Shown in pieces: positions 34,097 through 60,920 of a stretch of DNA of 64,000 nucleotides. The notes under the pieces were generated by a model that had not been told where the DNA came from, did no database searches, and was given only the letters and a program-made list of their open reading frames with translations. The stretch's first letter is position 1, and each line of letters starts with the position of its first letter. The stretch is from positions 1 through 64,000 of the forward strand of contig JAPLFG010000001.1 of the NCBI GenBank assembly GCA_026390795.1, given 5' to 3'. Source of the DNA: Ignavibacteriales bacterium. Lineage in GTDB: Bacteria > Bacteroidota > Ignavibacteria > Ignavibacteriales > Melioribacteraceae. A program made the translations under genes and the position numbers.

Positions 34097-36577
34097 ATGG
34101 AAAAGATTAATAATAAAAAAATAATTAAATCAGGTAGTAAGCCCGCTCTTTCAAAAATTAATTTGAATTCCGCTGACGAAGTAAGTGAATTCGCCGAAAA
34201 TTTAATCAATACTGTACGTGAACCTTTACTCGCATTGGATCAAGAATTAAGAGTAGTTAAAGCCAGCCGTTCATTCTATGATTTCTTCAAAGTAAATGCA
34301 GATGAAACTATCGGAACACTTATATATGATCTGGGAAATCAACAATGGAATATTCCGAAACTGAGAGAACTTCTGGAGACTATTCTTCCCGAAAAAACAA
34401 CATTCGATAATTATGAAGTTGAGCATGATTTTTCAACAATCGGCAAACGTATCATGTTATTGAATGCCAGGCAAATTGAAAGGGGACTTGGAGGAAAATC
34501 GAGAATAATTCTTCTTGCGATTGAAGATATCACCGAACGCAAGGGGATCGAATCCGGACTGGAAAAGACGCGCAAAGAACTAGAGGTGATTAAAATAACT
34601 GCTGATGAAGTGAGTGAATTTGCAGAAAACATAATCAACACAGTCCGCGAACCTTTGCTTTTGCTGGATAGAGAATTAAGAGTAGTAAAAGCCAGCCACT
34701 CGTTCTTTGATTTTTTCAAGGTAAGTACTGATGAAACAATCGGTACACTAATATATGATCTTGGAAATCGGCAATGGAATATACCTAAACTGAGAGAACT
34801 TCTGGAGACCATCCTTCCTGAAAAAACAACTTTTGATAACTATGAAGTTGAACATGATTTTTCTACAATTGGTAAACGAATTATGCTTCTGAATGCCCGG
34901 AAAATTCATAGAGGATCGGAGAAGGAGCAGATTATTCTTCTTGCCATTGAGGATATAACAGAGCGAAAAAGGATTGAAGCCGGATTAGAAAAAACCCGCA
35001 AAGAACTTGAGGTGATTAAAATATCCGCTGATGAAGTGAGTGAATTTGCCGAAAACTTAATCAACACTGTACGCGAACCTTTACTTGCATTGGATCATGA
35101 GTTAAGAGTAGTTAAAGCCAGCCGTTCATTCTATGATTTCTTCAAAGTAGATGCAGATGAAACAATTGGAACACTGATTTATGATCTTGGAAATCGTCAA
35201 TGGAATATTCCAAAACTGAGAGAACTTCTGGAGACCATCCTTCCGGAAAAAACAACATTCGATAATTATGAAGTTGAACATGATTTTTCAACAATCGGTA
35301 AACGCATCATGTTATTGAATGCCCGTCAAATTGAAAGAGGGCTTGGAGGAAAATCGAGAATAATCCTACTTGCCATTGAAGACATTACAGAACGGAAAAA
35401 AAATGAGAACGAACTTTCAAAGGCAAAAGCAGAAGCCGAACGGGCAAATGTTGCAAAGAGTGAATTCCTTTCGCGTATGAGTCACGAACTTAGAACACCA
35501 ATGAATTCGATTCTCGGTTTTGCACAATTGATGAATATGGGTGAACTCAACGCCGCCAATAAAAAAGGGGTTGACCACATAATGAAAAGCGGAAAGCATC
35601 TGCTCGATCTGATAAATGAAGTACTGGATCTCTCAAAAATTGAAGCGGGAAAGGTTACAGTTTCATTAGAACCAGTTCAATTGCGCGGAATAATTCTCGA
35701 AACAATGGACATTATCCGTCCGCTCGTCTTAAAAACTGATATTAAACTTGAATTGATTAATTCACAATGCAATGATCTCTTTGTTAAAGCAGACCGTCAA
35801 AAGTTAGGGCAGGTACTTCTTAACTTAGTTAACAACGCGGTAAAGTATAACAGGGTTGGAGGATCGGTAAAAGTAGAGTGCGCGGAAATCAACGGGAAAG
35901 AGGAAATTAGGATTAGTATAATAGATACCGGAAAAGGTATTCTACCCGAAGAGATTCATAAACTTTTTAATCCATTCCAAAGAATTGGATCTGAGATTTC
36001 GGAAATTGAAGGGACAGGACTTGGATTAGTAGTTGCTAAAAAATTGATGGAAGCTATGCATGGAAAGATTGGAGTTGAAAGTATAGTGGGGGAAGGAAGT
36101 ACATTTTGGATTGAATTGAAGCAAATTGAAGGCCAGATTGAACTGTATGAACAATCAGGGGCTCTAATTAAACCGGAATCCGAGAAAGCTGTTTTAGATG
36201 GAACGCTTTTATATATAGAAGATAATATTTCAAACATAGAACTTGTTGAGCAGATTATAGACACCCATCGCCCGGCTATCCGTTTGATAACAGAAATGTA
36301 TGGGAAAAATGCAGTACAATTGGCTAAGGAGTATAAACCGAATTTAATTCTTCTTGATCTGAATCTGCCAGATATTCACGGAAGTGAAGTATTAAAACTT
36401 TTGCAAGCCGAGCCGGATATTGCTGCGATACCGGTGATTATACTGAGCGCAGATGCAATGCCCAGGGAAATTAAAAAGTCGATAGAATCCGGAGCGAGAA
36501 AATATTTGACAAAACCATTAGAGGTTATTGAGTTTTTGAAAACAGTGGATGAAATCTTTAATGTAGTTAATAAGTAA
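34097..36577 (+). CDS. Hybrid histidine kinase with triplicated PAS domain (826 aa)
   Basis: This is a cytosolic kinase with no membrane segment. Three tandem PAS units of 142-143 residues (about 26-168, 169-310, 311-450) are almost identical. Each runs from ADEVSEFAEN to LLAIEDITERK. They are followed by HisKA with phospho-acceptor His463 in SRMSHELRTPMN. The ATPase domain comes next (NLVNNAVKYN, DTGKGI, GTGLGLVVAKKL), then a C-terminal receiver with phospho-acceptor Asp754 (LLDLNLPDIHGSE). Units 1 and 3 are closest at DNA level. Unit 2 has a two-residue deletion and more silent changes. The ligand or cofactor of the PAS units is unknown. A REC-REC protein gene follows 45 bp downstream, and its second receiver is a close relative of this one. 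Confidence 0.94.
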   Translation: MEKINNKKIIKSGSKPALSKINLNSADEVSEFAENLINTVREPLLALDQELRVVKASRSFYDFFKVNADETIGTLIYDLGNQQWNIPKLRELLETILPEKTTFDNYEVEHDFSTIGKRIMLLNARQIERGLGGKSRIILLAIEDITERKGIESGLEKTRKELEVIKITADEVSEFAENIINTVREPLLLLDRELRVVKASHSFFDFFKVSTDETIGTLIYDLGNRQWNIPKLRELLETILPEKTTFDNYEVEHDFSTIGKRIMLLNARKIHRGSEKEQIILLAIEDITERKRIEAGLEKTRKELEVIKISADEVSEFAENLINTVREPLLALDHELRVVKASRSFYDFFKVDADETIGTLIYDLGNRQWNIPKLRELLETILPEKTTFDNYEVEHDFSTIGKRIMLLNARQIERGLGGKSRIILLAIEDITERKKNENELSKAKAEAERANVAKSEFLSRMSHELRTPMNSILGFAQLMNMGELNAANKKGVDHIMKSGKHLLDLINEVLDLSKIEAGKVTVSLEPVQLRGIILETMDIIRPLVLKTDIKLELINSQCNDLFVKADRQKLGQVLLNLVNNAVKYNRVGGSVKVECAEINGKEEIRISIIDTGKGILPEEIHKLFNPFQRIGSEISEIEGTGLGLVVAKKLMEAMHGKIGVESIVGEGSTFWIELKQIEGQIELYEQSGALIKPESEKAVLDGTLLYIEDNISNIELVEQIIDTHRPAIRLITEMYGKNAVQLAKEYKPNLILLDLNLPDIHGSEVLKLLQAEPDIAAIPVIILSADAMPREIKKSIESGARKYLTKPLEVIEFLKTVDEIFNVVNK

Positions 36578-46203: not shown

Positions 46204-47451
46204 ATGGCGTTGACAGAGTTCAAAGTTAAGTCCGGATATTTTGTTTTTTTTAATCAGTTTCTGGAAAGAGTAACTTATTTAGTGTTCTATATAATTCTTG
46301 CGCGCATAGTATCAAAAAACGAGTACGGCGCTCTTATCACTATCTTTGCATTCAGCAATATCATTCAAATATTATTTGATTTTGGCATCCCATTCTATTT
46401 ACAAAGAGAAATTGCTTCCGGTAGAGATTACGTCGCAAAGTTGAATCCACTTCTTACCATAAAGTATCTTTCATTGCCGATGATCATATGTATCGAATTA
46501 ATTTATCTTTCATTGATTCAAAATATGAATCCCGTTTGGGTTATGATAATCAGTTCAGCTAATTATCTACAAAGCCTGAATCAAATATACAATTCAATTT
46601 TCTACGGTAAAGAACGCTATAAGGAATCTCTCACAGTAAATTTAATTTCAAAAATATTTTATTTTTTACTTGTCTTGATATTGATTTTTCTGAATAGTGG
46701 AGTTGTTTTTTTTCTTTCTTGTTTGATAATAAGTAACATATACCTTTTATATAAGCAAAGGACAATTTTATTATCAAAAATTTCTTTACAATATAAGTTC
46801 GTTTTCAAATTGGAAGGCCTGCGTGAAATATTGCCATCTTCTCTAAAGATTGGTGCCGGGCTTATTTTTGTTACAATTTATGACCGGGTGGATATTCTTA
46901 TTATACAAATGTTAATGAGTTATGAAAATGTCGCCGCGTATTCAGTAGCGTATTCTTTGTTCCGTTCGGTCCAGATATTTGGTACTGCAGTATTAATGCC
47001 CGCTTATACAAAGTATTCTGCTCTTTATAGTAAGAAGAACTTTCTAAATTTTTCGGATATTAAATTCGAATGTTATTCGTTAATTATGTTTAGTTTAGCT
47101 GTCATTTTTTTTTCCGGAGTTTTTGGAGAATTGATTATTAGATTAGTTTTTGGTGTTAATTATAGTTTTTCGGGAATGATTTTATTTATTCTAACTTTTG
47201 CTTTGCCCGGAGCATTCATGAATAATTTAACAGGTGTCATATCGAATTCTTCGCGAAAAGAAAAAATACCGCTAATTACTACAGGAGCTGGTGTATTGAT
47301 TGGGATAACATGCAACTTTATTCTGATTCCTCTTATTGGAATATACGGAGCTGTAACTGCGACCATTATTACCGAATATTCCGTTTTTCTTTTTCAATTG
47401 ATATTTCTCATTAAGAGTTCAAAAAATAAACCAAGAATTAATGGATACTAA
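46204..47451 (+). CDS. Wzx-type polysaccharide flippase (415 aa)
   Basis: This is a polytopic protein of about 12 helices of the MOP superfamily. The entry sequence is typical: SGYFVFFNQFLERVTYLVFYIILARIVSKNEYGAL, then LFDFGIPFYLQREIASG. The second half is GAGLIFVTIYDRVDILIIQ. Such proteins flip undecaprenyl-linked oligosaccharides across the inner membrane. Start ATG 46204 gives a normal length. It overlaps the next gene by 11 bases and opens an uninterrupted run of same-strand glycan genes. Confidence 0.9.
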   Translation: MALTEFKVKSGYFVFFNQFLERVTYLVFYIILARIVSKNEYGALITIFAFSNIIQILFDFGIPFYLQREIASGRDYVAKLNPLLTIKYLSLPMIICIELIYLSLIQNMNPVWVMIISSANYLQSLNQIYNSIFYGKERYKESLTVNLISKIFYFLLVLILIFLNSGVVFFLSCLIISNIYLLYKQRTILLSKISLQYKFVFKLEGLREILPSSLKIGAGLIFVTIYDRVDILIIQMLMSYENVAAYSVAYSLFRSVQIFGTAVLMPAYTKYSALYSKKNFLNFSDIKFECYSLIMFSLAVIFFSGVFGELIIRLVFGVNYSFSGMILFILTFALPGAFMNNLTGVISNSSRKEKIPLITTGAGVLIGITCNFILIPLIGIYGAVTATIITEYSVFLFQLIFLIKSSKNKPRINGY

Positions 47452-48649
47452 AAAATTGAACAAGGTTTTTAAAAACATCCTATCCCTCAATGAATACATT
47501 CTTGTTCTATTGATTTCTTCATTCTATCTTTTTTTTTCTGTTTTATGTTCAAAAATAATGTTTCCGGGACACTACGAATTTCAATTCTTCTGGGATCATC
47601 ATAAATACATGTATATGGCTGAACATCCCTTCCAATACCATTTAGCACCTTTTTGCTGGAGAATATTGAACCCATTCATAGCTTATATATTACCTTTCGG
47701 AACAACTATTAATTTTTTTATTCAAACTTTGATGACATTATTAGTTTCATCCATACTTGTATATCATTTACTGAGAATTCTACAATATGAAAAAAAATAT
47801 GCTCTGACTGGACTGATCTTTTTTTTAGGTATGGGATGGATCATTAAATATAATGTTTACGATTTTTGGCTCACGGATTCACTGTTGAATGTTTTCGTTC
47901 TATTGGTACTTGTCTCATTAGTGCGAAAAAAGGAAATCGCATTTGCATTACTTTTAGCAGCTGGTATTCTTGTTAAAGAGACGATATTATTTGTTGCACC
48001 TCTCTATTACACATTCAATTCAGAAAGAATCATCCATCTAAAGTTGCTCTCAAAAAATATATTGCTGGTTTTACCGTCTTTATCACTTCTGCTTATAGTC
48101 AGGTTACTAATCCCAGGATTAAACGGTGATTTAACCTATATTGCTTCACTACCGCCCGGTTTACAAAATGTTACTTATAACTCAAGCAACTACGATTTCG
48201 TAAAACTTGTTTTATCATTCCACATACAATATTCTTTTTTCGAGATCATAGCTATTGTAATCTCAGCTTATGGATTTATACCGGTGTTATTTTCGGTTCT
48301 TGGTATAAAAAAAAATAAAAAAATAGTTTTAATGTATTTTCCTTTGATTATTTTCTCGCTACTCCAGCTGTTTTATGCAATTAATATACCTCGTTTGCTT
48401 ACAATTGGTTTCTGGCCCGTTTTATTAATGGGAGTTAATGGAATAAAATATATCTCGACAAAATACAATATCTCGGTTTACTGGTTTATACTCACAGCTG
48501 TCACAATTCCCATAATGAATCTATCATCAAATAAAACTTTCATGATTCCCGATAGAATCCAAGTATATATTTTTATCTGTAGTGTTATGGTATTCACTTT
48601 CAAAAAACTTTATAAAAGAGTATTAAGTGAAAATAGTATTCCTCGGTAG
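47441..48649 (+). CDS. Multi-spanning membrane protein, polymerase/GT-C candidate (402 aa)
   Basis: About ten hydrophobic helices are visible. A conserved-looking first periplasmic loop (HYEFQFFWDHHKYMYMAEHPFQYHLAPFCWRILNPFIAYILP) with WRIL and a DHH pair lies in it. Its size and operon position fit a Wzy-type polymerase or a GT-C glycosyltransferase. No definitive family signature is seen. It overlaps both neighbours (11 bases and 23 bases), so translation is coupled. Confidence 0.65.
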   Translation: MDTKKLNKVFKNILSLNEYILVLLISSFYLFFSVLCSKIMFPGHYEFQFFWDHHKYMYMAEHPFQYHLAPFCWRILNPFIAYILPFGTTINFFIQTLMTLLVSSILVYHLLRILQYEKKYALTGLIFFLGMGWIIKYNVYDFWLTDSLLNVFVLLVLVSLVRKKEIAFALLLAAGILVKETILFVAPLYYTFNSERIIHLKLLSKNILLVLPSLSLLLIVRLLIPGLNGDLTYIASLPPGLQNVTYNSSNYDFVKLVLSFHIQYSFFEIIAIVISAYGFIPVLFSVLGIKKNKKIVLMYFPLIIFSLLQLFYAINIPRLLTIGFWPVLLMGVNGIKYISTKYNISVYWFILTAVTIPIMNLSSNKTFMIPDRIQVYIFICSVMVFTFKKLYKRVLSENSIPR

Positions 48650-49721
48650 ATACAACGAATCCGAAAAACTAAACGGCCCGGAGAAATTTGCCAAACGTTT
48701 ATTCGGAGAAATTGCTGCAAAAAATGCGGATAGTTTTTTTATTGGATATTTTTTTAAGGGAAGCCAAAGTTCTTTCATGAAAAGATTGATAGGGAAAAAA
48801 GAATTGAACACCGAGCAGCATATATTTCAACTTGGGATATTGAGAATTTTTTTATTTCTTATGAAAGAACAACCCGATATAATCCATATTGTTACTCATG
48901 AGAGATTTATTATCTCCCTTTTCATTTATAAATCATTTTTGAAAGGGAAAATTATAGTAACTCACCATTCGGTGGTGAAAGTAGAGCTAAATAATACTAT
49001 TCTAAAATTAAAAAAGTACGGACGATTTAAGGATGTTCTCTTCGAAAGACTGTCATTTAAATATGCTGATAGACATGTATTTGTATCTGAACTATTACTA
49101 GAAAGTAGCATTAAACATTATTCTTTCGATAAAAAGAAAGTGGTTATTATTCCAAATGGTGTTGATGGAATATTCTCATTCGCAGGAAAGACGATTGATG
49201 TAGAAAAAAAACTCAGAATTTTATTTTATAATGGATTCAACAATGTTTTCTCACGGGGATTGAACTTTGTAATTGATACGTTGAATCAACTTAGCAGTTA
49301 TTATCCTTTCGAACTTATTGTTCTAGGAGAGGACAATGCAAAAAATAAAATTAAACCGCTGTTTGGAATTACTTTTTTGGAACAACTGTCTACAAACGAA
49401 CTTTTTATTCTTATGAAAGAAACAAGTATTTTCATCAAATCAACCGAATTCGATTCATTTTCTTTCATGGTGGTTGAGGCCATGGCATCCGGCATGATTG
49501 TAATAATTTCTTCCAATGTGGGCGCCAAAGATTATATCCAACATGGAATTAATGGATTTATTTATGATAAAGATTCTCCTGAAGCGTTATACAAAGTGCT
49601 TAAAAAATTATTCGCTAATTATTATGACTTAAATTCAATTTCAAAGCAAGCCACATTTGTCTATAATATATTAAACTGGGATGCAATTAGTAGTCGGTAT
49701 TTGGAACTATATAACTCATGA
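48627..49721 (+). CDS. GT4-family glycosyltransferase (364 aa)
   Basis: The GT-B fold has an N-terminal KIVFLGRYNESEKLNGPEKFAKRL. The C-terminal donor-binding part has FDSFSFMVVEAMASGMIVIISSNVGAKDYIQHGINGFIYD, the E-x7-E-like region of GT4 enzymes. It is predicted to transfer a sugar from a nucleotide donor onto the lipid-linked repeat unit. The start is GTG 48627, inside the upstream gene, with AAGAG before it. The next gene starts in the ATGA overlap. Confidence 0.88.
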   Translation: MKIVFLGRYNESEKLNGPEKFAKRLFGEIAAKNADSFFIGYFFKGSQSSFMKRLIGKKELNTEQHIFQLGILRIFLFLMKEQPDIIHIVTHERFIISLFIYKSFLKGKIIVTHHSVVKVELNNTILKLKKYGRFKDVLFERLSFKYADRHVFVSELLLESSIKHYSFDKKKVVIIPNGVDGIFSFAGKTIDVEKKLRILFYNGFNNVFSRGLNFVIDTLNQLSSYYPFELIVLGEDNAKNKIKPLFGITFLEQLSTNELFILMKETSIFIKSTEFDSFSFMVVEAMASGMIVIISSNVGAKDYIQHGINGFIYDKDSPEALYKVLKKLFANYYDLNSISKQATFVYNILNWDAISSRYLELYNS

Positions 49722-50866
49722 CTGATTTACAAGAAAAAATAAAAGTCTGCCATATTTGCGACCGAATAACAGGTAAAGCTGATGGAGTGTTCAGTCACCT
49801 TCTAATGTTGCTAAATAATATTGATAAAAATAAATATGAGCAAATAGTAATTTACCAAGGGGGAGAGGTTGTTGAACAAGAATTAAATAAAATGGGGATT
49901 AAAGTATTTGTTGTTTCTGGGTTAAGAAATAGATTATCTATTGATGCCTTAGTCAAAATATATAAAATACTTCGGTCTGAAAATGTTGATATAATTCATG
50001 CTCACCTAATAAAGCCTTACATACTTGCAGGATTGATAAATATCTTTCTTAAGAAAAAATTTATATTTAATTATCATGGCTTATTTATCAATTCAGTTTA
50101 TCATAATAGGCTTGATAAATTGATCCTAAAAGTATTGCACCGCTTAATCTGTCTTTTTAGAGCGGTTGATATAGTTGTTGTCCCATCAAGAAAAAGCATG
50201 CAATTATTGGAGGATGAAACAAGATTATTTCCTAAGGTTGAAGTTTACTACAATGGTTATGATTGCCAAAAACAAGTTAGTCCCGATCCTGGAATCATTA
50301 AAGATCTAATAACTATGAAAGCCAAATTTTTTCTGATCGGGATAATTGCCAGACTTGAGGTACAAAAGAGAATAGATTTATCGTTATTAATGTTAAAAGA
50401 ATTAGTCCAAAAAGGTAACTCAGTATTCTTCATTTATTTTGGTGACGGTCCGTTGGAAGAAGACATAAAACTTTATGCAAAAGCTTTAGATGTAGATAAT
50501 AATTGTAAATTTTATGGATTTATTAAAAACGCAAAAAATTATTTTAAATATTTGGATACTATTCTGTTTACTTCGGACTGGGAGGGTTTACCGTTAACTT
50601 ATTGGGAGGCAATGGCTAATTCTGTCCCGGTTATCTCCACAGATGTTGGAGGAGCTAGAGAAATATTAATTGATAATAATTGCGGAATAGTATATCCTAG
50701 AGGAGATATCGAAGGAGGAGTAAAAGCCATTGAATTAGTTATCAAAAATGAAACGTTTAGGAGAGAATTAGGTGAAAATGGAAAACTTGCAACTCAATCC
50801 AAATATAATCTTCATGCATTTAAAACATTTTTTGAAAATTTATATAATCAGTTAATGATTCAATAG
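49718..50866 (+). CDS. GT4-family glycosyltransferase (382 aa)
   Basis: This is a GT-B fold enzyme with N-terminal KVCHICDRITGKADGVFSHLLMLLNNI and the DIIHAHLIKPYI helix. The donor-site segment reads GIIARLEVQKRIDLSLLMLKEL, then FTSDWEGLPLTYWEAMANSVPVISTDVGGAREIL. It starts in a 4-base ATGA overlap with the preceding gene. Sugar specificity cannot be told. Confidence 0.92.
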   Translation: MTDLQEKIKVCHICDRITGKADGVFSHLLMLLNNIDKNKYEQIVIYQGGEVVEQELNKMGIKVFVVSGLRNRLSIDALVKIYKILRSENVDIIHAHLIKPYILAGLINIFLKKKFIFNYHGLFINSVYHNRLDKLILKVLHRLICLFRAVDIVVVPSRKSMQLLEDETRLFPKVEVYYNGYDCQKQVSPDPGIIKDLITMKAKFFLIGIIARLEVQKRIDLSLLMLKELVQKGNSVFFIYFGDGPLEEDIKLYAKALDVDNNCKFYGFIKNAKNYFKYLDTILFTSDWEGLPLTYWEAMANSVPVISTDVGGAREILIDNNCGIVYPRGDIEGGVKAIELVIKNETFRRELGENGKLATQSKYNLHAFKTFFENLYNQLMIQ

Positions 50867-50875
50867 AAATTGACT

Positions 50876-51973
50876 ATGTATAAAATGAATGTGCTCCATA
50901 TTTCTCCCGACTTCAATTACTCATGCGGTGTCAGTAAATATGTTTTTCTTTTATTGGAAGAATTAAGTAAAAAAGAGAGCCTTCGTTTATTCTTTATTAC
51001 CAATAAAGGAGATTCACTTGAAAGACTTGACGGACTAAATGTGAAGGTTGATTTTCTAAATTTCGAAAGAGGAAACCGGAATCCATATAAATTTCTAGTC
51101 AATTATTTTTATCTTCTAAATTATTGCAAAGCTAACAAAATAGATCTTATTCATACACATCACCGTTATCCCGAACTAGTTTCATATCTGGTAGGTAAGC
51201 GTTTAGGAATTAAAACAATTACGACTGTCCACAGTTTAGTGAGCGGATGGAAATATCTAAGTTTTAGATCTGATAGAATCATTGCAGTTAGTAAAGCAGT
51301 AATGCACTTATTAATCGAGAAGTATAGAGTAAATAGTAGGAAGATTTCACAAATCTATAACTTTGTAAAACCGTTTAATTATCATAAAGCCAAAGAAGAA
51401 GATCGCTTAAAAGAGGAATTAGGAATAAAAGTAACAGACAGAGTTTTATTATTTGTTGGTAGAATTAGTTATACGAAAGGGTGTGATGTTCTGATATCCG
51501 CTTTTGAAAATTTATTAAATGAATTTCCATCCCTGAAGCTTATAATGATTGGCAGTTTTGAATCTGAAGAATTGATGCAATCAGTTCTAAGGAATAAAGC
51601 TATAATATACCTCGATCCGACGCCTGACATTGTGAATTATTATTCGATTTGCAATGTTGTTGTGATTCCTTCAATTATCGATTCTTTTCCATACGTAATG
51701 CTCGAAGCTGGTCTCACTGAAAAGCCTTTTATTGGAGGAAGAACTGGGGGGACAGCAGAGTTTATTGAGGATGGAATTGATGGTCTTTTAGTGAAAACCG
51801 GATGCATTGATGACTTGGTTATATCTATTAAACGAATACTCAACGATACAGATTTATCTGAAAAACTATCTCGAAATTTATCGTCAAAGGTCAATAATCT
51901 TACAAATGCAGAATCATATTCGGATAAGATAACAAAACTATATTCTGGCTTAATTCATGAAACCCATCGATAA
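50876..51973 (+). CDS. GT4-family glycosyltransferase (365 aa)
   Basis: This is another GT-B enzyme. It has HISPDFNYSCGVSKYVFLLLEEL near the start and DLIHTHHRYPELVSYL. Its central donor-domain entry is LLFVGRISYTKGCDVLISAFENL, followed by IDSFPYVMLEAGLTEKPFIGGRTGGTAEFIEDGIDGLLV. ATG 50876 is preferred to the TTG at 50870. It lies 9 bp after the previous gene and overlaps the next by 17 bases. Confidence 0.92.
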   Translation: MYKMNVLHISPDFNYSCGVSKYVFLLLEELSKKESLRLFFITNKGDSLERLDGLNVKVDFLNFERGNRNPYKFLVNYFYLLNYCKANKIDLIHTHHRYPELVSYLVGKRLGIKTITTVHSLVSGWKYLSFRSDRIIAVSKAVMHLLIEKYRVNSRKISQIYNFVKPFNYHKAKEEDRLKEELGIKVTDRVLLFVGRISYTKGCDVLISAFENLLNEFPSLKLIMIGSFESEELMQSVLRNKAIIYLDPTPDIVNYYSICNVVVIPSIIDSFPYVMLEAGLTEKPFIGGRTGGTAEFIEDGIDGLLVKTGCIDDLVISIKRILNDTDLSEKLSRNLSSKVNNLTNAESYSDKITKLYSGLIHETHR

Positions 51974-52721
51974 ATTACTTGTTTTGAATCGCATCAGAGT
52001 AGATGATGCTGATTTCAATCTGATATGTGATAGAATAAAGAGCGCTTTGGAGAATCGGAGCAGATTAGTAATTCTTTATGCTAATATTCAACTAATCAAT
52101 CTGGCAAAGAAAAATATAAATATTTCTCAAATTTTAAATTCTGCCGAAATTGTTTTCCCAGATGGGATTGGTATTTGGTTAGCATCTAGATTATTCGGGA
52201 GGAAAAAAAATACTAAATTTAATTGGACAGATTATGCTTGGAGTTTTTTATCTATTGTTGAACAAAATAATTGGAAAATATTTTTTTTAGGTTCAACCGA
52301 TGAAATTCTTGCACGAGGTAAAGCTAACATCTACAAAAAGTATCCTAATATAAACTTGGTCGGTTCATTAAATGGTTTTAATGATCTAGAAAATTCAGAA
52401 TTATTGCAATCAATAAATAACGTAAATCCTGATATTTTATGGGTTGGTTTAGGTTCTTTAAAACAAGAATATTGGATAAGTGAGAATAAGGACAAACTTA
52501 ATGTCAGAATAATTCAGGCTGTTGGAGATTTATTTGCTCTTTTTACAAATCAAAAAATTCGAGGTCCAAAATTATTTCAAAAACTTGGATTGGAGTGGGT
52601 TTTCAGACTGATCAATGAACCGAAAAGACTGTGGCGAAGATATTTACTTGGCATACCAAAATTTTTCATGTTAGTAATCCGTGAATTAATAAAAAAGAGG
52701 AGTGAGAAAAATAATTCTTAA
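51957..52721 (+). CDS. WecG/TagA/CpsF-family glycosyltransferase (254 aa)
   Basis: This is a GT26-family enzyme. It has VFPDGIGIWLASRLFG, WKIFFLGSTDE, DILWVGLGSLKQEYWISENK and the C-terminal KLGLEWVFRLINEPKRLWRRYL signature, at usual length. Such enzymes add N-acetylmannosamine-type residues, or related sugars, to lipid-linked intermediates early in glycan assembly. Some family members are membrane-associated through the basic C-terminal tail, which is present here (IRELIKKRSEKNNS). Its donor here is unknown. Confidence 0.94.
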   Translation: MKPIDKLLVLNRIRVDDADFNLICDRIKSALENRSRLVILYANIQLINLAKKNINISQILNSAEIVFPDGIGIWLASRLFGRKKNTKFNWTDYAWSFLSIVEQNNWKIFFLGSTDEILARGKANIYKKYPNINLVGSLNGFNDLENSELLQSINNVNPDILWVGLGSLKQEYWISENKDKLNVRIIQAVGDLFALFTNQKIRGPKLFQKLGLEWVFRLINEPKRLWRRYLLGIPKFFMLVIRELIKKRSEKNNS

Positions 52722-52740
52722 CAGATTATATGAAATAATT

Positions 52741-54174
52741 ATGATCAAAAAGCGAGAAGACAAATTAACTTTTTATGGATTGTTCGCTATATCGATCCTT
52801 GTTTTGTTCTTGCTTACTTATATAACTCTTATCAAAGAAAGAATCATTGAGTATATTTCATTTAATAATGATCCACTCGATGTTATATATTACAATAACA
52901 TTTTTACTAATATGCATTTCAGTATATCAATTACAATCGTACTTATCACGGTTATAATTATTTTCAAGAAAGAAGTAATTAATTCACTAAATCAAATATC
53001 CGATGAATACTTAGCATGGTTTTTTATTCTGATCAGTGTTATACTGCAAATTATTATTGCATTGTATGTAAAAACTGAACCGATAGCGGATAGTAAATTT
53101 TATCTAGATCATGCGAATCGGTTATTTACTACCGGTTACTATCTAAATGAGTATAATCATCCTACTGCTTTTTGGCCTATAGGGTTACCGGCTCTTATCT
53201 CATTGTTCCAGCATATCAATTCAGATCCAATTTTGTTAGTCAGATTTTCCAATATCATTGTGAGCTCAATTTATATTTATACAGTTGATTCATTTTTTAG
53301 GCAATCTTTATCTAAGAAACAAAGAATTATATTTTTGCTTTTATTCGTTCTTTATCCCAATCACCTTTTTAGCGTAAATGTTATTCTAACTGATTTTCCA
53401 TTTGCGGCATTATTATGGATCATTCTTAATCTAATCTCGAAAAAGAAATTAAAAATATTTCACTTTATTCTAATTGGAATATTGACTGCCTCAATGACAT
53501 ATCTCAGACCTCTTGGATTAGTTATGCCTTTTGTAATTTTTATCCTTCTATTCAATAATAACAAGCTGCGGTATGCAGTTAAAATGACTTCTGTAATTGT
53601 TCTGACATTATTTATCCTTTTATCTCCATGGATCTATAGAAACTATCTGGTTTTTGGAACACCGGTTATTGTCGCAACAAATGGTGGGTTCAATTTTTTA
53701 ATGGGGAATCATAAAAATTCTAACGGCGGTGTAAATTTTGATTTTAATTACAGTGTTGAGAATTCAAATGAACCGCAAGAAGAATTAAAAGCATATCAAA
53801 CGAGTTTTCATGATGTTATAGAGAATCCATTACAATCAATTTTGCGGTTACCTAAAAAAATATTCTATTCTTATTGGCGAGGAGATAGTTCAATTACATG
53901 GTCGCTAAAGAAAACCAGCAATACTATTTCCCCAATTTTCACTAGCTCCATATTCTTTATGACAAATTTTATTTTTTATGCTATTATATCACTTAGTATC
54001 GCTGGTTTTTATCATAAAGGATTTGGAGACTTAATCTTTATTAAAAAACGAATTATTATTTACAGCTTTCTTGTTTTTATATCATTAATCATTTTTTACG
54101 TAGGGGGTGAAAGATATATAATACCTATTATGCCGATTCATATTTATTACTTTGCTAAATATTTTGATAAATAA
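52741..54174 (+). CDS. GT-C membrane glycosyltransferase-like protein (477 aa)
   Basis: This is a polytopic protein of about 11-12 helices. The first large loop carries EPIADSKFYLDHANRLFTTGYYLNEYNHPTAFWPIGLPALIS, with the acidic residue pattern and PIG motif seen in GT39/ArnT-like dolichol- or undecaprenyl-phosphate sugar transferases. Later SPWIYRNYLVFGTPVIVATNGG is also typical. ATG 52741 is used; GTG 52702 (490 aa) overlaps the upstream gene and is possible. It resembles the next gene in overall plan. Confidence 0.75.
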   Translation: MIKKREDKLTFYGLFAISILVLFLLTYITLIKERIIEYISFNNDPLDVIYYNNIFTNMHFSISITIVLITVIIIFKKEVINSLNQISDEYLAWFFILISVILQIIIALYVKTEPIADSKFYLDHANRLFTTGYYLNEYNHPTAFWPIGLPALISLFQHINSDPILLVRFSNIIVSSIYIYTVDSFFRQSLSKKQRIIFLLLFVLYPNHLFSVNVILTDFPFAALLWIILNLISKKKLKIFHFILIGILTASMTYLRPLGLVMPFVIFILLFNNNKLRYAVKMTSVIVLTLFILLSPWIYRNYLVFGTPVIVATNGGFNFLMGNHKNSNGGVNFDFNYSVENSNEPQEELKAYQTSFHDVIENPLQSILRLPKKIFYSYWRGDSSITWSLKKTSNTISPIFTSSIFFMTNFIFYAIISLSIAGFYHKGFGDLIFIKKRIIIYSFLVFISLIIFYVGGERYIIPIMPIHIYYFAKYFDK

Positions 54175-54183
54175 ATTTGAAAA

Positions 54184-55506
54184 ATGAAATTCCTTACTTT
54201 AACAAAGGTTTTTTCTCTTTTATTCATTCTCTCGGTTATAGTCCAACTTCTTGGTTCAATAGTTTTAGTCAATTCATTCCCAAATGAGAAGAGAATCTAT
54301 GACCCTCGTTTTCAACAATTAGCGTATAATCTTAATACAGATCATTCCTTCGAAATAAAGTGGGGAACCGACAAAAACCCTGATCGCATAATGATCAATC
54401 CTTTTCAAATACAAAGAGGAATATATCAAAACTGGTTTCCAATTGGATATGCCCTTGTTATATATTCTGCAATGTTGATTGATAGCAATTATTCCAAAAT
54501 TTTAATGATTCTTCAACTTTTATTATACTCATTTATTCCGCCGCTCATTTTTTTGTTGAGTAATAGTTTTTATTTTCAAAACAATTATTCTAGAGCAGCT
54601 TTCCCGTCTCTATTGTTTCTATTAAATCCATATTATTCAATTGCTTCAATCTGGATAACCGATACATGGATGATTACACTAATTACTCTTTTATGTTTTT
54701 ATTTGTTGTTATGCACAATTAAAAAACGTTTGAAAATAAATATTGCCTTCGGTCTAGCTGTTGTTATGCTTTTTCTTTTACGTCCGATTGGAATATTCCC
54801 ATTAGTTGTTGTGTATATTATTTATGCTTGGAAAGAGTATAGAATATTCAAAATACATTTACCCTTGATAATAGTATTATTCGGAATTCTAACTTGGGGT
54901 TATCGAAATTATTTATTATTCCATCAATTTGATTTTACAAATTCCAGCGTTGGTTATAATTTGTGGCTTGGAAATAATTTCTATACAAATAATTTTTTAA
55001 AAAACCATCTGGGCGATTGTTCAACGATCGAAGATAAAATTATTCCCTATTTTGACACGAAGTGGTCATTTCTCAAAAACTATTCAGAATATCAAAAAGA
55101 TGAATTCTTTAAACAACAGGCTTGGAATTTCATTAAATCACATCCGCTTGAGACATTAGAAAATTCCTTTTGGAAAATGATCGGATTTTGGTCTCCATTG
55201 AGAGTTCGAACTGATCACTGGAGTGAATCCACGGTAAAAACCATAGTGATGATGATTTACTTTACCCCTTTACTTTTTCTTTCATTTCTTTCAGTCCTGA
55301 AATTCTTTTGGAAAAAGGAATATAAAATTAAAAGGGAAAAAGGAATATTAATCCTTTTCATGTTTTTATGGATGATACCTCATTTAGCTTTTTTTAGTAC
55401 TTCCAGATTTCGCGCGCCAATTGATTTTGGATTAATAATTTTATCATTTGATTTGATAATACCATATTTTACTAAAAATAGATTTCCTATTATATCAGAT
55501 AAATAA
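54184..55506 (+). CDS. GT-C membrane glycosyltransferase-like protein (440 aa)
   Basis: About ten helices are predicted. It shares with its upstream neighbour the loop motif NWFPIGYALVIYSAML and the later GYRNYLLFHQFDFTNSSVGYNLWLGNN, the same positions as PIGLPAL and YRNYLVFGTPV there. The two are probably paralogues acting on lipid-linked sugars. It begins 9 bp after the preceding stop and ends 11 bp before the C25 peptidase gene. The substrate is unknown. Confidence 0.72.
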   Translation: MKFLTLTKVFSLLFILSVIVQLLGSIVLVNSFPNEKRIYDPRFQQLAYNLNTDHSFEIKWGTDKNPDRIMINPFQIQRGIYQNWFPIGYALVIYSAMLIDSNYSKILMILQLLLYSFIPPLIFLLSNSFYFQNNYSRAAFPSLLFLLNPYYSIASIWITDTWMITLITLLCFYLLLCTIKKRLKINIAFGLAVVMLFLLRPIGIFPLVVVYIIYAWKEYRIFKIHLPLIIVLFGILTWGYRNYLLFHQFDFTNSSVGYNLWLGNNFYTNNFLKNHLGDCSTIEDKIIPYFDTKWSFLKNYSEYQKDEFFKQQAWNFIKSHPLETLENSFWKMIGFWSPLRVRTDHWSESTVKTIVMMIYFTPLLFLSFLSVLKFFWKKEYKIKREKGILILFMFLWMIPHLAFFSTSRFRAPIDFGLIILSFDLIIPYFTKNRFPIISDK

Positions 55507-55517
55507 AAGAACGGTTT

Positions 55518-58500
55518 ATGAGTATTTTAAGAAGGTTCTTTCTTATTTTTTCCATACTCTCGTTATCGTTGAATTTTTCTGTCGCACAGTACACGATTAA
55601 ATCCGTAAAAAATACTCCTACCGGTTTAGATATTTCGATAAGTTTTGTTGAATCTAAGAATGAAATCAAATTAACAGATGCTAAAAGGATTATAGATTAC
55701 TTCGAATCTACCGATCCCTCAAAACCAGGTTATCCAAAACTTCCCTCCAGTGTTGTTTACATAGCTATACCTCCAAATAGTAAATTGAACGCAGAAATAA
55801 TTAACTCCGATATTGATATTATTGCCGATGTTATACCGGAATCAAATCCTGAAGTTATAAAATCATCAGATTCAACTTATATATATAAAAGCACCCGACT
55901 TTTAGAAAAGCTCTTTCTAACAGAATACTATCCCGCGGAAGAATTGGAGATACTTGGCTATACATGGGTCAATAATCGTTATTGTGCTGTTCTAAAAATT
56001 AATACTCATAGATTCGGTTGGAAGAATAGAGAAATCAGAGTTTTAAAATCATTAGAGATAAAAACTTATTTTGACCAAAAAGTAATGTCAAAAGTAAACA
56101 CCACTTCACCATCAGGTTCTAACGAAATATTGTCGAAGTTGGTAGTTAATTATAATATGGTCTCTGAAGCCCGTCCTTCTGCAGTTGCCCCTGTGAAGAA
56201 TAGCTCCAATGACTGGATCGATTATTCAACTGAATATTTAAAGTTTGCTATTCCTAAGGACGGAATATATAGAATCACTTATGATGATTTTACCAATTAT
56301 GGTGTTAATCCTTCTGCCATAAATCCTAAAACATTCAAACTTTTCTTGAAAGGGAATCAAATCCCAATTTATGTAAATGGGGAAGATGATCTTACATTTG
56401 ATAAAGGGGATTATATTGAATTCTGGGGGGAGAAGAATTATGGCGATAAAGATTATAGGATGATAGTTAGCAAAGGAAACGATTATAAAAATTTTATGAA
56501 CAGATACTCTGATACTGCAGTCGTGTGGATAAATTGGGGCAAAGAAGAGGGACTAAGGATTTCGAAAAGCTCCTTGAATACTTCGGCAGTACTCGATACA
56601 ATTAAAAGTTCATTAGTAAAACTACATTTGGAGAGTGATCAAAGATTGTGGTTTTATGATCCTGTTGATCCGCGGGTTCAACTTCCGAACTGGCAAGAAA
56701 ATAAAGTCTGGACCTGGTTGGTGCTTGGAAGTTCAGGGAGCCAATCGATTAATTTTTCCGCAAAAAATATTTTGCCAAATTCTATCGTGAAAAGTTATAC
56801 CCGCTTAATAAGTAATGCATCTGATATTCAAATTAAAGCTCATAAAAACGGTGTGTCGATTAACTCGACAGTTTTTCAAGACACTCTTAGTTATGATTAC
56901 CGGTCAACTGTAAATATTGAAAGCAAGTATTCTTCTTCTGTTCTGAAAGAAGGAAATAATATATTCCGAGTATTTGGCCTTCCAACCAAAGCATCATTTC
57001 AGCAATCCTTGCTCGATTGGATCGATATCGACTACTTCCAAAGTAATATCGCGGTAAATGACAGTATTCAGATTACGATCCCGGACCCAGTAAAAACAAA
57101 TATACGTGCTATTAAAATCAGTAACGTTAAGCTTACTCAATCGAATATTGTCCTATATAAAATAAAGTCAAATTTTAAAATGTTCGAGAATTACAATTAC
57201 AACCTTTCGAAAGGAGAAATTGTTTTTATCGATACGGTCCAAGCGGGAGATAAATATTTCTTAGGAAGGAAAAGCAACTATGAAATTCCAAAATTTATAG
57301 AAAATAAATTATTTAAAAATATCTCATCTAAACAGAACAGTGCTCAATATGTGGTTATTACGCATAGATCATTAATTCAATCTGCCCAGGAATATCAAAA
57401 ATTTATTAGTTCGTCATATAACATAAAAACGGGTTTATTTCTTATGGATGATATTTATGATGAATTCTCTTATGGTACTAAAAGCGCCGAGTCAATCAAA
57501 GAATTTTTAATGAACGCAAACTACAATTGGACAGATATCAAACCTTTATATCTATTGTTAATTGGGGATGCAAATTACGATTATAAAGATGTTTATACTC
57601 CAGCACCTGCAATAAGAAAGAAAGATTTAGTTCCTTCATTCGGCAATCCGGTGAGTGATGTATGGTACACCATCTGGGATAATTCGAATCTTGCGGTTCC
57701 ACAAATGAGCGTTGGTAGAATACCTGCAAGTAATAATGACCAAGTGCTATTTTATCTTAATAAACATAAAAGTTATCTGAATAAACCTTATGATGAATGG
57801 AATAAAGACTATCTGCTTTTTAGCGGAGGAGATGCACAAAATCCATCTGAGTTAGCACAAATTAAAGCAGTAAATGATGCAGTTCTAAATAATATTATAA
57901 CTGTAAAACCTGTTGGCGGAAATGGGACACATTTTTATAAAACACTTTCTCCACCAACTAATCTTGGACCATATAGCAGTGATGTTATAAGCAGCAAAAT
58001 TGCAAATGGAGGTATTATTGTTTCATATGTTGGTCATAGCGGAACGCAGACATGGGATAATGGAATAACAAAGGTCGAAGATATCAAGAACAGTTATCAG
58101 GATAGATTCCCGCTGATTTCTGATTTTGGCTGTTCAACTGGAAAATTCGCTGAACCTGATGTAGATGCTTTTGGTGAGCTCTTTATATCTATCGACAATT
58201 CAGGACAGGCAATTAATTATCTGGGAAATTCAAGTTTCGGATATTTATCTACCTCAACAAAATTTCCAATTTTATTTTATGAGGAATTATTAAAAAACCA
58301 GACTCAGTCAGTAGGACAAATTCATAATATCGCAAAGTTAAAGTTAATTGAACAAACAGGGATATCGGATGTGAATAATGTTTTTATATATTGCAATTTA
58401 TTGTTTGGTGATCCAATTATTAAAATAAAAATTCCTCCCAAACCAAATTTCTTTATAGATAAAAACTCAATTGAGATTTTAAATAAAGATATTACCGATG

Positions 58501-60920
58501 GATTAGATTCCATTTCTATAAAAATTAAAGTAAATAATTATGGCTTGGTGACCGATGAAGCATTAAAAATTAGAATAACTGATACATTTAACTCGGTAAT
58601 AGTATTTGATATAAATAAAAATATTAATTCTCCATTATTCCAAGATTCTTTAACACTAAAAATACCAGTTAAAAAAAAACCGGGTTTACACAATCTGGAA
58701 GTTCAAATAGATCCTGATAATCTATTTGATGAAATAACTAAGACAGATAATTATGCTGAATTGGAATTCAATGTTTATTCCAGTTCAATAAAGTTTATAG
58801 TGAGCGATAAGTTTTATTTAACAAAACAAAACGGTATTACCGTTTTAAATCCTACAACTGCATTAGATATTAAAAATCCAATTATCCAAGTTTCCTATTC
58901 GGAAGATCCAGGTTTTGCTTCATCGCGCACCCTTGAGAAATCTGTGGATACGTTAGTTACTAAATTTACATTTGTTAATCTGATACCCGATAAGAGATAT
59001 TATTGGAGATCTAGAATCAATGGTAATAGCTTGGGCGACTGGTCGGATACATATTCCTTCTTGAATACCAATATACCATACAAATGGTATTATCAACCTT
59101 CATTTCTCAATGATGATGTAATATTCAAATCTATAATTTACGATTCGACTATGGGTGTATTAAAGCTTGAAAATAAAAGTAAAAATCTTAAACTAATTTC
59201 TGCTGGTTCGAACGAAGGCAAATTTGCCTCCTTAAAGATCAACTCGGAAGAGACTTTACCAAATTCATTTTTTTGGGGAATTGCCACCGCACTAATTGAT
59301 ACAGTTAGTCTAACTCCTCATTCGTTCCGGTATTTCCTTTATCCTTCCGCAACGTCAGGAACATTATTAAAACAATACATCGATTCATTGACAGTTGGTA
59401 CTGTACTTGCGTTAACTATATGCGATGATGGCGCACAATCTGTTCTTGGTTTTAGTACCGGTACACCGGTCAGAAAAGCAATTGAAACTCTTGGAAGCCA
59501 GTATATAAATAATGTTGGTTATCGTGAATCATGGTGTATGATTGGAATTAAAGGCGCGCCGAAGGGAAGTGTAGCGGAAGACTATAAAAAGATTTATGAA
59601 GGACAGGCAATTATCGAATTGAACAAAATGGTACATGCTGATTCCGGTACAGTTATTTTACCTGTTATTTCAAATTCGGTGAGATGGAAAGATTTTACAA
59701 TTTCAAGATCAATCCCAAATGGGAGTCAACTTTTGCTTTACCCAATTGGAGAAAAAAATGACGGCAAAACAGATACGTTGCAAGTAATGGATTTGAAGGA
59801 TAGTACAAAGAGTCTGAGCGGAATTAATGCGTCGATTTATCCCAAACTCAAGTTTATGGTAAAAATGTTTGCCAATAGTAAAAAAGAATCGCCTGAAATA
59901 AACACAGTTGGAGTCAATTATAATGGATCTTCGGAATTAGCTTTGAACTATCAGGTCGTTACTGTCGCCAAGGATTCTCTAGACCAAGGCGAGAATATCA
60001 ATCTCTCATTTTATGTTTATAATGTTGGTGAATCGAAAGCAGAAAATTTCAAAGTGAATGTGGAATTAATTAAAAAAGACAACTCGCATGAAAAAATATT
60101 TCAAACAATTGTAGATTCTCTTGGATCACAACAAAATAAATTTTTCAACGTTCTATATAATACGTCAGATATTAACGGCCCGGTTCAACTTAATATAAAT
60201 ATTGATCCGGAAAACAAAATCCTTGAGCTTTATAAGGATAACAATTTGTATCCTGTATCTATATATATAAAACCAAACACAATGCCGGCTTCATTGAAAT
60301 TAACTTTTGATGGCAACGATATTATCAACGGTGATTTTGTTTCTGCAAATCCAAATATAAGAATTGAGCTAAGCGATCAATCGCTTGTGCCTATTAGAGA
60401 CACAACGGCAGTTCAAATATATCTCAATAATAAGCAGATTTATTTCAATAATAATTCGAATCTCAGTTATTCGTTTTCGACTTCTAACCCTAAATTTACT
60501 GTGGACTATAAACCTATCCTCGAAAGCGGATTTTATTTTATGAAAATCATAGGAAGAAATGCAACCGGGGCGTTGATCGATTCTGCCGGTGTAACAAGAA
60601 AGTTTGAAGTCCAGAAAGATTTGCAGCTGCTTGATGTTTATAATTATCCTAATCCATTTAAGGACGAAACGTTTTTCACATTTAAGCTGACTCAATTACC
60701 TGATGAATTGAAAATAAAAATATTTACTATTGCCGGAAGAATGATAAAAGAGATTAACTTAACTTCTGCAGAATTAAAATATGATTTCAATAAAATATAT
60801 TGGGATGGAAGAGATACGGATGGAGAACTAATAGCAAACGGTGTTTATTTGTATAAAATTATTTCAAAGAAAGGAAATGAATCAGCTCAAACTATTCAAA
60901 AGTTAGCCATTGTTCGTTAA
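55518..60920 (+). CDS. C25 (gingipain-like) peptidase with ILEI-like domain and T9SS tail (1800 aa)
   Basis: A signal peptide (to about residue 24) and an N-terminal prodomain-like region precede a C25 caspase-like fold (about 640-970). It has LIGDANYDYKD, catalytic His840 in SYVGHSG, and Cys872 in SDFGCSTGKFAEPD. Then come a CARDB-like domain (970-1080), an Fn3-like unit (1090-1180) and an ILEI/FAM3-like domain (about 1190-1380). The last has PHSFRYFLYPSATSG, GTVLALTICDD and GYRESWCMIGIKGAP. A second CARDB-like domain (about 1475-1580) and a T9SS sorting domain (about 1703-1800, with YNYPNPFKDE) complete it. It is predicted to be a surface peptidase. It lies 11 bp after the last glycan gene and is probably co-transcribed with that operon. 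A PorU-like sortase role is possible but unproven. Confidence 0.9.
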   Translation: MSILRRFFLIFSILSLSLNFSVAQYTIKSVKNTPTGLDISISFVESKNEIKLTDAKRIIDYFESTDPSKPGYPKLPSSVVYIAIPPNSKLNAEIINSDIDIIADVIPESNPEVIKSSDSTYIYKSTRLLEKLFLTEYYPAEELEILGYTWVNNRYCAVLKINTHRFGWKNREIRVLKSLEIKTYFDQKVMSKVNTTSPSGSNEILSKLVVNYNMVSEARPSAVAPVKNSSNDWIDYSTEYLKFAIPKDGIYRITYDDFTNYGVNPSAINPKTFKLFLKGNQIPIYVNGEDDLTFDKGDYIEFWGEKNYGDKDYRMIVSKGNDYKNFMNRYSDTAVVWINWGKEEGLRISKSSLNTSAVLDTIKSSLVKLHLESDQRLWFYDPVDPRVQLPNWQENKVWTWLVLGSSGSQSINFSAKNILPNSIVKSYTRLISNASDIQIKAHKNGVSINSTVFQDTLSYDYRSTVNIESKYSSSVLKEGNNIFRVFGLPTKASFQQSLLDWIDIDYFQSNIAVNDSIQITIPDPVKTNIRAIKISNVKLTQSNIVLYKIKSNFKMFENYNYNLSKGEIVFIDTVQAGDKYFLGRKSNYEIPKFIENKLFKNISSKQNSAQYVVITHRSLIQSAQEYQKFISSSYNIKTGLFLMDDIYDEFSYGTKSAESIKEFLMNANYNWTDIKPLYLLLIGDANYDYKDVYTPAPAIRKKDLVPSFGNPVSDVWYTIWDNSNLAVPQMSVGRIPASNNDQVLFYLNKHKSYLNKPYDEWNKDYLLFSGGDAQNPSELAQIKAVNDAVLNNIITVKPVGGNGTHFYKTLSPPTNLGPYSSDVISSKIANGGIIVSYVGHSGTQTWDNGITKVEDIKNSYQDRFPLISDFGCSTGKFAEPDVDAFGELFISIDNSGQAINYLGNSSFGYLSTSTKFPILFYEELLKNQTQSVGQIHNIAKLKLIEQTGISDVNNVFIYCNLLFGDPIIKIKIPPKPNFFIDKNSIEILNKDITDGLDSISIKIKVNNYGLVTDEALKIRITDTFNSVIVFDINKNINSPLFQDSLTLKIPVKKKPGLHNLEVQIDPDNLFDEITKTDNYAELEFNVYSSSIKFIVSDKFYLTKQNGITVLNPTTALDIKNPIIQVSYSEDPGFASSRTLEKSVDTLVTKFTFVNLIPDKRYYWRSRINGNSLGDWSDTYSFLNTNIPYKWYYQPSFLNDDVIFKSIIYDSTMGVLKLENKSKNLKLISAGSNEGKFASLKINSEETLPNSFFWGIATALIDTVSLTPHSFRYFLYPSATSGTLLKQYIDSLTVGTVLALTICDDGAQSVLGFSTGTPVRKAIETLGSQYINNVGYRESWCMIGIKGAPKGSVAEDYKKIYEGQAIIELNKMVHADSGTVILPVISNSVRWKDFTISRSIPNGSQLLLYPIGEKNDGKTDTLQVMDLKDSTKSLSGINASIYPKLKFMVKMFANSKKESPEINTVGVNYNGSSELALNYQVVTVAKDSLDQGENINLSFYVYNVGESKAENFKVNVELIKKDNSHEKIFQTIVDSLGSQQNKFFNVLYNTSDINGPVQLNINIDPENKILELYKDNNLYPVSIYIKPNTMPASLKLTFDGNDIINGDFVSANPNIRIELSDQSLVPIRDTTAVQIYLNNKQIYFNNNSNLSYSFSTSNPKFTVDYKPILESGFYFMKIIGRNATGALIDSAGVTRKFEVQKDLQLLDVYNYPNPFKDETFFTFKLTQLPDELKIKIFTIAGRMIKEINLTSAELKYDFNKIYWDGRDTDGELIANGVYLYKIISKKGNESAQTIQKLAIVR

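Follow-up and report, generated by a model that had tools for sequence, protein, structure and literature searches.

In Porphyromonas gingivalis, the C-terminal domain of type IX secretion system (T9SS) cargo is removed and the new C-terminus is joined to anionic lipopolysaccharide (A-LPS), a sortase-like reaction that has been assigned to PorU (PMC4560394; this and the other articles are cited by PubMed Central accession and for the sections drawn on here). In wbaP mutants, T9SS cargo is released with a C-terminus that is plain or capped by a peptide (PMC4560394). A-LPS is bound by PorZ, which presents it to the sortase (PMC8545088), and linkage to A-LPS runs through a pentasaccharide linker, for which four dedicated glycosyltransferases and an attachment to the O-polysaccharide have been proposed (PMC13086638). 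In the literature that we found, this glycan anchor of T9SS cargo has been worked out in oral bacteria, namely, P. gingivalis, Tannerella, and Prevotella intermedia. In a different protein-sorting system, 90% of the homologs of EpsH, an exosortase, lie near exopolysaccharide genes (PMC1569441). Here, we analyze 64,000 nucleotides of the genome of an Ignavibacteriales bacterium (GenBank assembly GCA_026390795.1, contig JAPLFG010000001.1, positions 1 to 64,000 of the forward strand; the whole stretch is called the window), in which a gene at positions 55518-60920 encodes a protein with both a peptidase family C25 domain and an ILEI domain (the C25-ILEI protein) and is the last of an operon of glycan synthesis genes. 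We propose, with confidence about evenly balanced, that it acts as a second sortase-type enzyme of the T9SS, PorU2-like and dedicated to the glycan of its own operon. Among the publications listed in searches of the open-licence PMC literature, none is, by its title or the beginning of its abstract, on PorU2 or on C25-ILEI proteins.

RESULTS

The window protein is a PorU2-like C25 enzyme with an ILEI domain

The features of the C25-ILEI gene are as follows, in window coordinates.

55518-60920, forward strand: C25-ILEI protein (PorU2-like), 1800 amino acids (aa), ATG start, last gene of the glycan operon
55518-55589, forward strand: probable Sec signal peptide, residues 1-24, judged by eye
56196-57347, forward strand: PorU-like N-terminal region, residues 227-610 (NF052324 match at 227-1078, NF033707 match at 238-1014)
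57348-58424, forward strand: peptidase family C25 domain, residues 611-969, Pfam
58035-58037, forward strand: His840, in a GH motif, invariant in 35/35 aligned sequences, window protein included
58131-58133, forward strand: Cys872, invariant in the same 35/35 sequences
59076-59933, forward strand: beta-sandwich (galactose-binding-like) around the ILEI domain, residues about 1187-1472, predicted model
59277-59558, forward strand: ILEI/FAM3/POMGnT1-stem-like domain, residues 1254-1347, Pfam, profile, and predicted fold
59958-60251, forward strand: CARDB domain, residues 1481-1578, Pfam
60633-60917, forward strand: PorU-type T9SS C-terminal tail, residues 1706-1800, NCBIfam and tail comparison

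The window protein is a PorU2-like C25 enzyme with an ILEI domain. The original prediction, made from the sequence without database searches, had described a C25 peptidase carrying an ILEI-like domain at about residues 1190-1380, and both domains were recovered above the Pfam cut-offs: Peptidase_C25 (PF01364) at residues 611-969 (E 3.5e-58, 198.1 bits against a cut-off of 23) and ILEI (PF15711) at residues 1254-1347, inside the claimed segment (E 3.9e-15, 56.6 bits against a cut-off of 27). A CARDB domain follows at residues 1481-1578 (E 1.6e-11). Residues 227-1078 narrowly pass the NCBI model NF052324, "putative type IX secretion system sortase PorU2" (456.1 bits against a cut-off of 450), and the PorU structure 6za2 is the sole C25 chain in the PDB matched at E <= 0.01 (E 2.3e-10). 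Gly839-His840 and Cys872 are invariant in all 35 aligned sequences, the identity of which to the window protein extends down to 20%; we take His840 and Cys872 to be the C25 catalytic dyad.

The C-terminal tail is of the PorU type

We found that residues 1710-1789 match the T9SS sorting tail model TIGR04183 (32.2 bits against a cut-off of 23, NCBIfam), so the prediction that the protein is exported by the T9SS stands as far as the presence of a sorting tail is concerned; the tail belongs to the PorU type rather than to that of typical cargo, and export itself is a probable consequence. The tail type was assigned by comparing the last 95 residues of C25-ILEI proteins, through pairwise BLAST scores, with PorU tails and with cargo tails of the window genome (30 cargo loci taken, 15 of which gave a usable tail). 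Matches were obtained for 1583/1620 C25-ILEI/PorU pairs and 1179/1215 C25-ILEI/cargo pairs. The class medians for C25-ILEI tails were 77.4 bits to PorU tails and 33.5 bits to the cargo tails of the window genome (15), and the best scores of the window tail were 94.7 bits to PorU and 51.2 bits to cargo. A tree of the tails did not separate the three tail classes, and the statement on tail type rests on the pairwise BLAST scores. We rejected the possibility that the C25-ILEI protein is ordinary T9SS cargo, since its tail is PorU-type and resembles the cargo tails of the window genome much less. Because a PorU-type tail points to a resident component of the machinery, the comparison suggests that the C25-ILEI protein is such a component of the T9SS.

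These features also bear on another reading, in which the C25-ILEI protein would be a surface peptidase and not a sortase, exported by the T9SS, held by its ILEI domain to a glycan coat, and trimming or maturing coat proteins there by hydrolysis. The intact dyad, the lectin-like predicted fold described below, and a score under the PorU cut-off are consistent with this reading, and family C25 also contains plain peptidases, such as the gingipains. In contrast, PorU-like homology extends beyond the catalytic domain (residues 238-1014), the C-terminal tail resembles that of PorU, and PorU alone among the C25 chains in the PDB was matched at E <= 0.01. These three points are compatible with hydrolysis as well, and we consider a plain surface peptidase unlikely, though far from negligible.

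The ILEI domain is predicted to sit within a beta-sandwich

Besides the Pfam match, the claim of an ILEI-like segment was borne out by profile matches to FAM3 and POMGnT1 chains and by the predicted fold. The sequence profile of the region matches FAM3B (2.2e-24) and POMGnT1 (6e-19). In a structure model of residues 1075-1478, built from 35 sequences (mean predicted local distance difference test [pLDDT] score of 90.8), model residues 146-298 match the POMGnT1 stem 5ggf_B (Z 18.5, root mean square deviation 2.4, 142 aligned residues), and the same part matches FAM3A, FAM3B, and FAM3C (Z 16-17), in agreement with Foldseek. Model residues 113-398 give weaker matches to galactose-binding-like, MAM, and similar sandwiches (Z about 9-12), and since these cover both sides of the ILEI domain, the domain appears to be inserted into a beta-sandwich at residues about 1187-1472.

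The POMGnT1 stem binds beta-linked N-acetylglucosamine via Arg129, Asp179, and Arg207, and FAM3C and FAM3A also bind sugars (PMC9802357), while a POMGnT1-stem-like module in streptococcal phages has been proposed to be a carbohydrate-binding module (PMC9437275). From the FAM3 motifs and the conservation of the three residues that is stated for FAM3 proteins (PMC9802357), we infer that the equivalents of Arg129, Asp179, and Arg207 in the window protein are Trp1253, Asp1303/1304, and Arg1336, with two of the three kept. Across the 35 aligned sequences, Arg is found at the first contact position in 11, Asp at position 1303 in 21, and Arg at the third position in 22. Sugar binding by the ILEI domain is plausible, with a ligand or pocket that may differ among lineages. 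Bacterial POMGnT1-stem-like domains would thereby gain a likely setting, namely, glycan recognition beside a protein-processing enzyme.

The C25-ILEI gene is the last of a nine-gene glycan operon

The description of the gene as the last of a polysaccharide operon was confirmed. Nine same-strand genes, starting at position 46204, overlap by up to 23 bases or are separated by gaps of 3 to 11 bases, and the C25-ILEI gene is the ninth, 11 bases after a gene for a polytopic protein. The eight genes that precede it are as follows.

46204-47451, forward strand: Wzx-type flippase (Polysacc_synt), Pfam
47441-48649, forward strand: polytopic membrane protein with hydrophobic segments and a weak match to NF046093, a cell-surface glycopolymer formation family (30.9 bits, below the cut-off of 150)
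48627-49721, forward strand: glycosyltransferase family 4 (GT4) protein a, Pfam
49718-50866, forward strand: GT4 glycosyltransferase b, Pfam
50870-51973, forward strand: GT4 glycosyltransferase c, Pfam, the best seed for most of the largest GT4 cluster near C25-ILEI genes
51957-52721, forward strand: WecG/TagA/CpsF glycosyltransferase, Pfam and NCBIfam
52702-54174, forward strand: polytopic protein with hydrophobic segments, possible GT-C enzyme, weak match to PMT_2 (21.6 bits, below the cut-off of 26.1)
54184-55506, forward strand: polytopic protein with hydrophobic segments, without a Pfam or NCBIfam match at E <= 0.01

Among the matches listed, the WecG of the operon is the only one in the genome at E <= 1e-15. 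The composition of the operon, with a flippase, few transferases, and no Wzy_C match, fits the synthesis of a short lipid-linked glycan.

A gene for a PfkB-type kinase (listed with a TTG start) lies 63 bases downstream of the C25-ILEI gene. Elsewhere in the window, a sensor histidine kinase at positions 34097-36577 has three near-identical N-terminal repeats of ~150 residues each, as judged by eye.

C25-ILEI genes lie beside glycan genes in much of the class

We collected 80 stretches around C25-ILEI genes, spanning, contig ends permitting, 10 kb upstream and about 4.5 kb downstream, which together with the window make 81 C25-ILEI loci. The stretches were hand-picked to favor long contigs and family spread and are not a random sample; two of them (L066 and L067) come from one genome, and for six (L064, L065, L074, L075, L076, and L078) that fell outside the ILEI places listed, Pfam confirmed a match to ILEI over the cut-off. 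As a control, we used 20 canonical porU loci from 20 of the same genomes in five families, one of which (L089) is shortened by a contig end. Open reading frames (ORFs) were clustered without prior labels, and the loci were scored with profiles built from those clusters.

Three or more glycan-family genes are present in 63/81 C25-ILEI loci and 0/20 porU loci. WecG was called as an ORF in 58/81 and 0/20, GT4 in 58/81 and 1/20, and Wzx in 49/81 and 1/20, respectively, whereas the PorV cluster is found in 20/20 porU loci and 1/81 C25-ILEI loci. Of the 58 WecG genes, 50 are on the same strand as the C25-ILEI gene and 57 are upstream, with a gap to the C25 gene of <=300 bp in 46/58 (median, 10.5). 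At least eight more loci have a WecG that was missed by the ORF caller and found by profile (L016, L041, L048, L050, L055, L060, L061, and L071), about 7 kb away in L055 and on the downstream side in L060, which brings the combined count to at least 66/81. On the genome scale, at least 76 of the 150 WecG places listed have a listed C25 or ILEI match no more than 15 kb away, and this holds for at least 55/69 genomes in which both are listed. In the named strain Stygiobacter electus 09-Me (L118), WecG adjoins the C25-ILEI gene. Thus, the expectation that such genes regularly stand beside glycan operons is supported by the 63 loci against none among the porU controls, but it is not universal, as WecG is missing from the loci examined of families f4, f16, f6, and f21 and from the stretches examined outside the class. 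Of the 15 loci that remain without WecG, the other six are L040, L042, and L043 of family f2 and L052, L058, and L059, in which the upstream sequence is short.

Several loci have features of their own. In the f4 loci L063-L066, the C25-ILEI gene, without WecG, is followed by a gene for a 1028-1065-residue protein with a PHP-type start that by eye resembles DNA polymerase III alpha, and an asparagine-synthase-like gene (also by eye) is near C25-ILEI in three of L063, L064, L065, and L066. Families f8 and f14 include loci with C25-ILEI-type genes in tandem (L068, L069, L070, L075, L076, and L079).

ILEI and WecG tend to be present or absent together

With the window protein as the query, matches at E <= 1e-20 were found in 271/294 genomes of the class, PorU-type matches included. 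ILEI is present in 188 of these 294 genomes, canonical PorU over its cut-off in 282, and WecG in 151; among 296 genomes drawn from the phylum, the class itself included, 77 have ILEI, for the most part in frames of 1500-2000 residues. Over the class, 133 genomes have both ILEI and WecG, 55 have ILEI only, 18 have WecG only, and 88 have neither (Fisher P of 1.6e-19 for the co-occurrence, a value that ignores phylogeny). In the order of the window genome, the corresponding numbers for 59 genomes are 43, 3, 2, and 11, and the genomes with neither marker belong to several genera. Within the window genus (seven genomes), G145 and G191 have neither marker, and in G093, ILEI is missing and the sole WecG is a longer one. 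As a marker, ILEI has flaws in the order table: the C25 match of G222 (WecG only) begins at the end of a contig that also carries WecG, a 1022-residue frame of G266 (neither) gives a C25 match but no ILEI match, and the genes of G140, G157, and G215 (ILEI only) are partial. An artefact of large genomes was rejected as the source of the pattern, as several order genomes of >4 Mb lack both markers (G066, G073, G245, and G269).

We asked how these data bear on the possibility that the site is a fixed hotspot for recombination of glycan cassettes, with the C25 gene no more than a conserved flank, so that the synteny would be due to chance or neutral. Part of the loci do have recurrent outer flanks (TPR, DUF4292, and M23 genes upstream and barrel c10, HAD, and PQQ propeller genes downstream), on both sides in 18/81 loci and on one side in 11, as a hotspot would predict. 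None of the six flank families is seen in the other 52, however, and 33 of those still have WecG by ORF; this persistence of the WecG linkage away from the recurrent flanks speaks against a passive flank gene. Presence and absence of the two markers also track each other in the order (only 5 of the 59 genomes are discordant), and the flank gene c10 behaves differently, being present in genomes that lack ILEI and missing from the window genome. We therefore regard neutral synteny as distinctly improbable. The c10 product is a 450-aa outer-membrane-barrel-like protein (e.g., L018:15178-16524) encoded downstream of C25-ILEI in 22/81 loci; its model (pLDDT 76.8) resembles porins, AlgE, and Wzi in a generic way, and PorV is not among the best 50 matches. 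We rejected c10 as a dedicated PorV-like shuttle, as it is found in 122/294 genomes, many of them without ILEI, and not in the window genome.

Variant gene forms were also seen in the survey. Shorter C25 relatives in frames of ~1000 residues occur at G289:C95:110855-113761 and G266:C99:23-3064, the former adjoining the second WecG of its genome (C95:110012). Two ILEI matches lie in one frame in G096, G192, G242, G293, and G270 (frames of 2076-2399 residues) and in G162 (a 1346-residue frame). At G153:C1:2398816-2402123, C25 is in a 1188-residue frame and ILEI is in a 232-residue frame, and the gene is broken or frameshifted.

The genome also encodes a general T9SS attachment set

The window genome (4.08 Mb, 5 contigs) contains two C25 matches, the window gene and G000:C2:41717. 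The latter is the canonical porU that was anticipated elsewhere in the genome (954 bits against a cut-off of 420, 1328-aa frame). Directly after it, at C2:44018, is a PorV-like match, which scores 30.7 bits on the PorV2 model, and C2:84435 has a match to the PorZ propeller (53.1 bits against a cut-off of 27). The window ILEI is the only ILEI match in the genome, and there are 66 T9SS tail matches, 63 of them over the cut-off. Since canonical porU, PorV-like, and PorZ-like genes are present separately, the C25-ILEI protein is an extra enzyme on top of the general T9SS attachment set. A PorV2 (NF052325) partner was sought and rejected: the best own-genome match scores 203.8 bits, under the cut-off of 325, and is on another contig, so no partner can be named.

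Low-scoring T9SS tails adjoin PorV2 or PorV-like matches at five places (C3:2096128 with C3:2096509, C3:2162456 with C3:2162883, C5:282179 with C5:281519, C5:137087 with C5:136872, and C3:1558149 with C3:1558430), and these look like several dedicated cargo-shuttle pairs.

DISCUSSION

In the mechanism that we propose for a dedicated second sortase, the Wzx, GT4, and WecG proteins of the operon would build and flip a short lipid-linked glycan, which would reach the cell surface by a route not encoded in the operon. The C25-ILEI protein would be exported by Sec and the T9SS and, through its PorU-type tail, may be retained at the surface as part of the machinery and not as ordinary cargo. The ILEI domain within its predicted beta-sandwich could then recognize the operon glycan. 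The Cys872/His840 site, with its invariant dyad, would, judging from PorU, cleave the C-terminal domain of some T9SS cargo, and by analogy with the same enzyme, the new cargo C-terminus would be transferred to an amino sugar of the glycan. A further proposal, which we hold more tentatively and at somewhat less than an even chance, is that a single polypeptide unites the transpeptidase role of PorU with the glycan recognition of PorZ and is co-inherited with the locus of its acceptor glycan; many Ignavibacteria lineages would then have a glycan and a sortase matched to each other in addition to the general PorU/PorV/PorZ system.

Several observations weigh against a glycan-dedicated sortase. 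At the level of the protein, four C25-ILEI relatives score 348-400 bits on NF052324, under 450, so that 0/4 pass, and the window protein scores 280.6 bits on the PorU model NF033707 (residues 238-1014), below its cut-off of 420. The mapped equivalent of Arg129 in the window protein is Trp, and several relatives lack two or all three of the inferred sugar-contact residues. A Wzy_C ligase/polymerase match is absent from the operon, and the only Wzy_C ORF of the genome is at C3:468 kb; no dedicated cargo set was found. At the level of distribution, ILEI occurs without WecG in 55/294 class genomes, as noted above, and the nine loci examined from f4 (five) and from f16, f6, and f21 (four) have C25-ILEI without WecG. 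WecG is found in 0/20 stretches from outside the class, seven of which have a GT4 gene somewhere (L188, L189, L195, L196, L197, L200, and L201) and one of which (L198) shows no C25-ILEI frame.

The last alternative, a glycan-binding scaffold or adhesin in which the peptidase domain is a leftover, would account for the large noncatalytic part (ILEI, CARDB, and beta-sandwich), but His840 and Cys872 are invariant down to 20% identity, which is not expected of a dead enzyme, and we consider it very improbable.

If the C25-ILEI protein is a dedicated sortase, a second sortase-like enzyme that travels with its own glycan genes would make it possible to ask genetically which glycan a sortase uses, in free-living lineages that include the named strain S. 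electus 09-Me. The small number of genes in the operon suggests a glycan that is short and defined, loss of which should release or mislocalize particular surface proteins.

The enzyme type has already been flagged by NCBI as "putative PorU2," and what is new here is the ILEI fusion, the PorU-type tail, the class-wide linkage to glycan loci, and the co-occurrence. The NF052324 model, which the window protein passes, covers the N-terminal part only, and its name leaves out the ILEI domain, the tail type, and the glycan-locus linkage. With PorU of P. gingivalis (NF033707, 6za2), the window protein has in common the C25 Cys/His pair, the PorU-type N-terminal region, and the PorU-type tail; it differs in falling below the PorU cut-off, in carrying ILEI and CARDB domains, and in being about 470 aa longer than the PorU frame of its own genome, and its gene is in a glycan operon and not beside porV, in a genome that has its own PorU. 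POMGnT1 and the FAM3 proteins are animal proteins that are not known to carry a C25 domain; the window protein has the same predicted fold and clear profile similarity to them, with Trp at the mapped position of Arg129. EpsH is presumably unrelated to the C25-ILEI protein. In both systems, a putative transpeptidase is encoded inside glycan loci; EpsH, in exopolysaccharide loci, has at least eight membrane helices (PMC1569441), and the protein studied here is a predicted T9SS surface enzyme. Sugar recognition next to a surface sortase is common to PorZ and, by our reading, the window protein, but it resides in a separate beta-propeller in the former (PMC8545088) and in a POMGnT1-stem-like domain fused to the C25 enzyme in the latter. 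Like the A-LPS linking-saccharide system of P. gingivalis, the operon contains dedicated glycosyltransferases, together with a flippase, and its product may have a linker role. A self-contained glycan-recognizing sortase of this kind would, if our proposal is true, be the T9SS counterpart of the exosortases that are embedded in exopolysaccharide loci.

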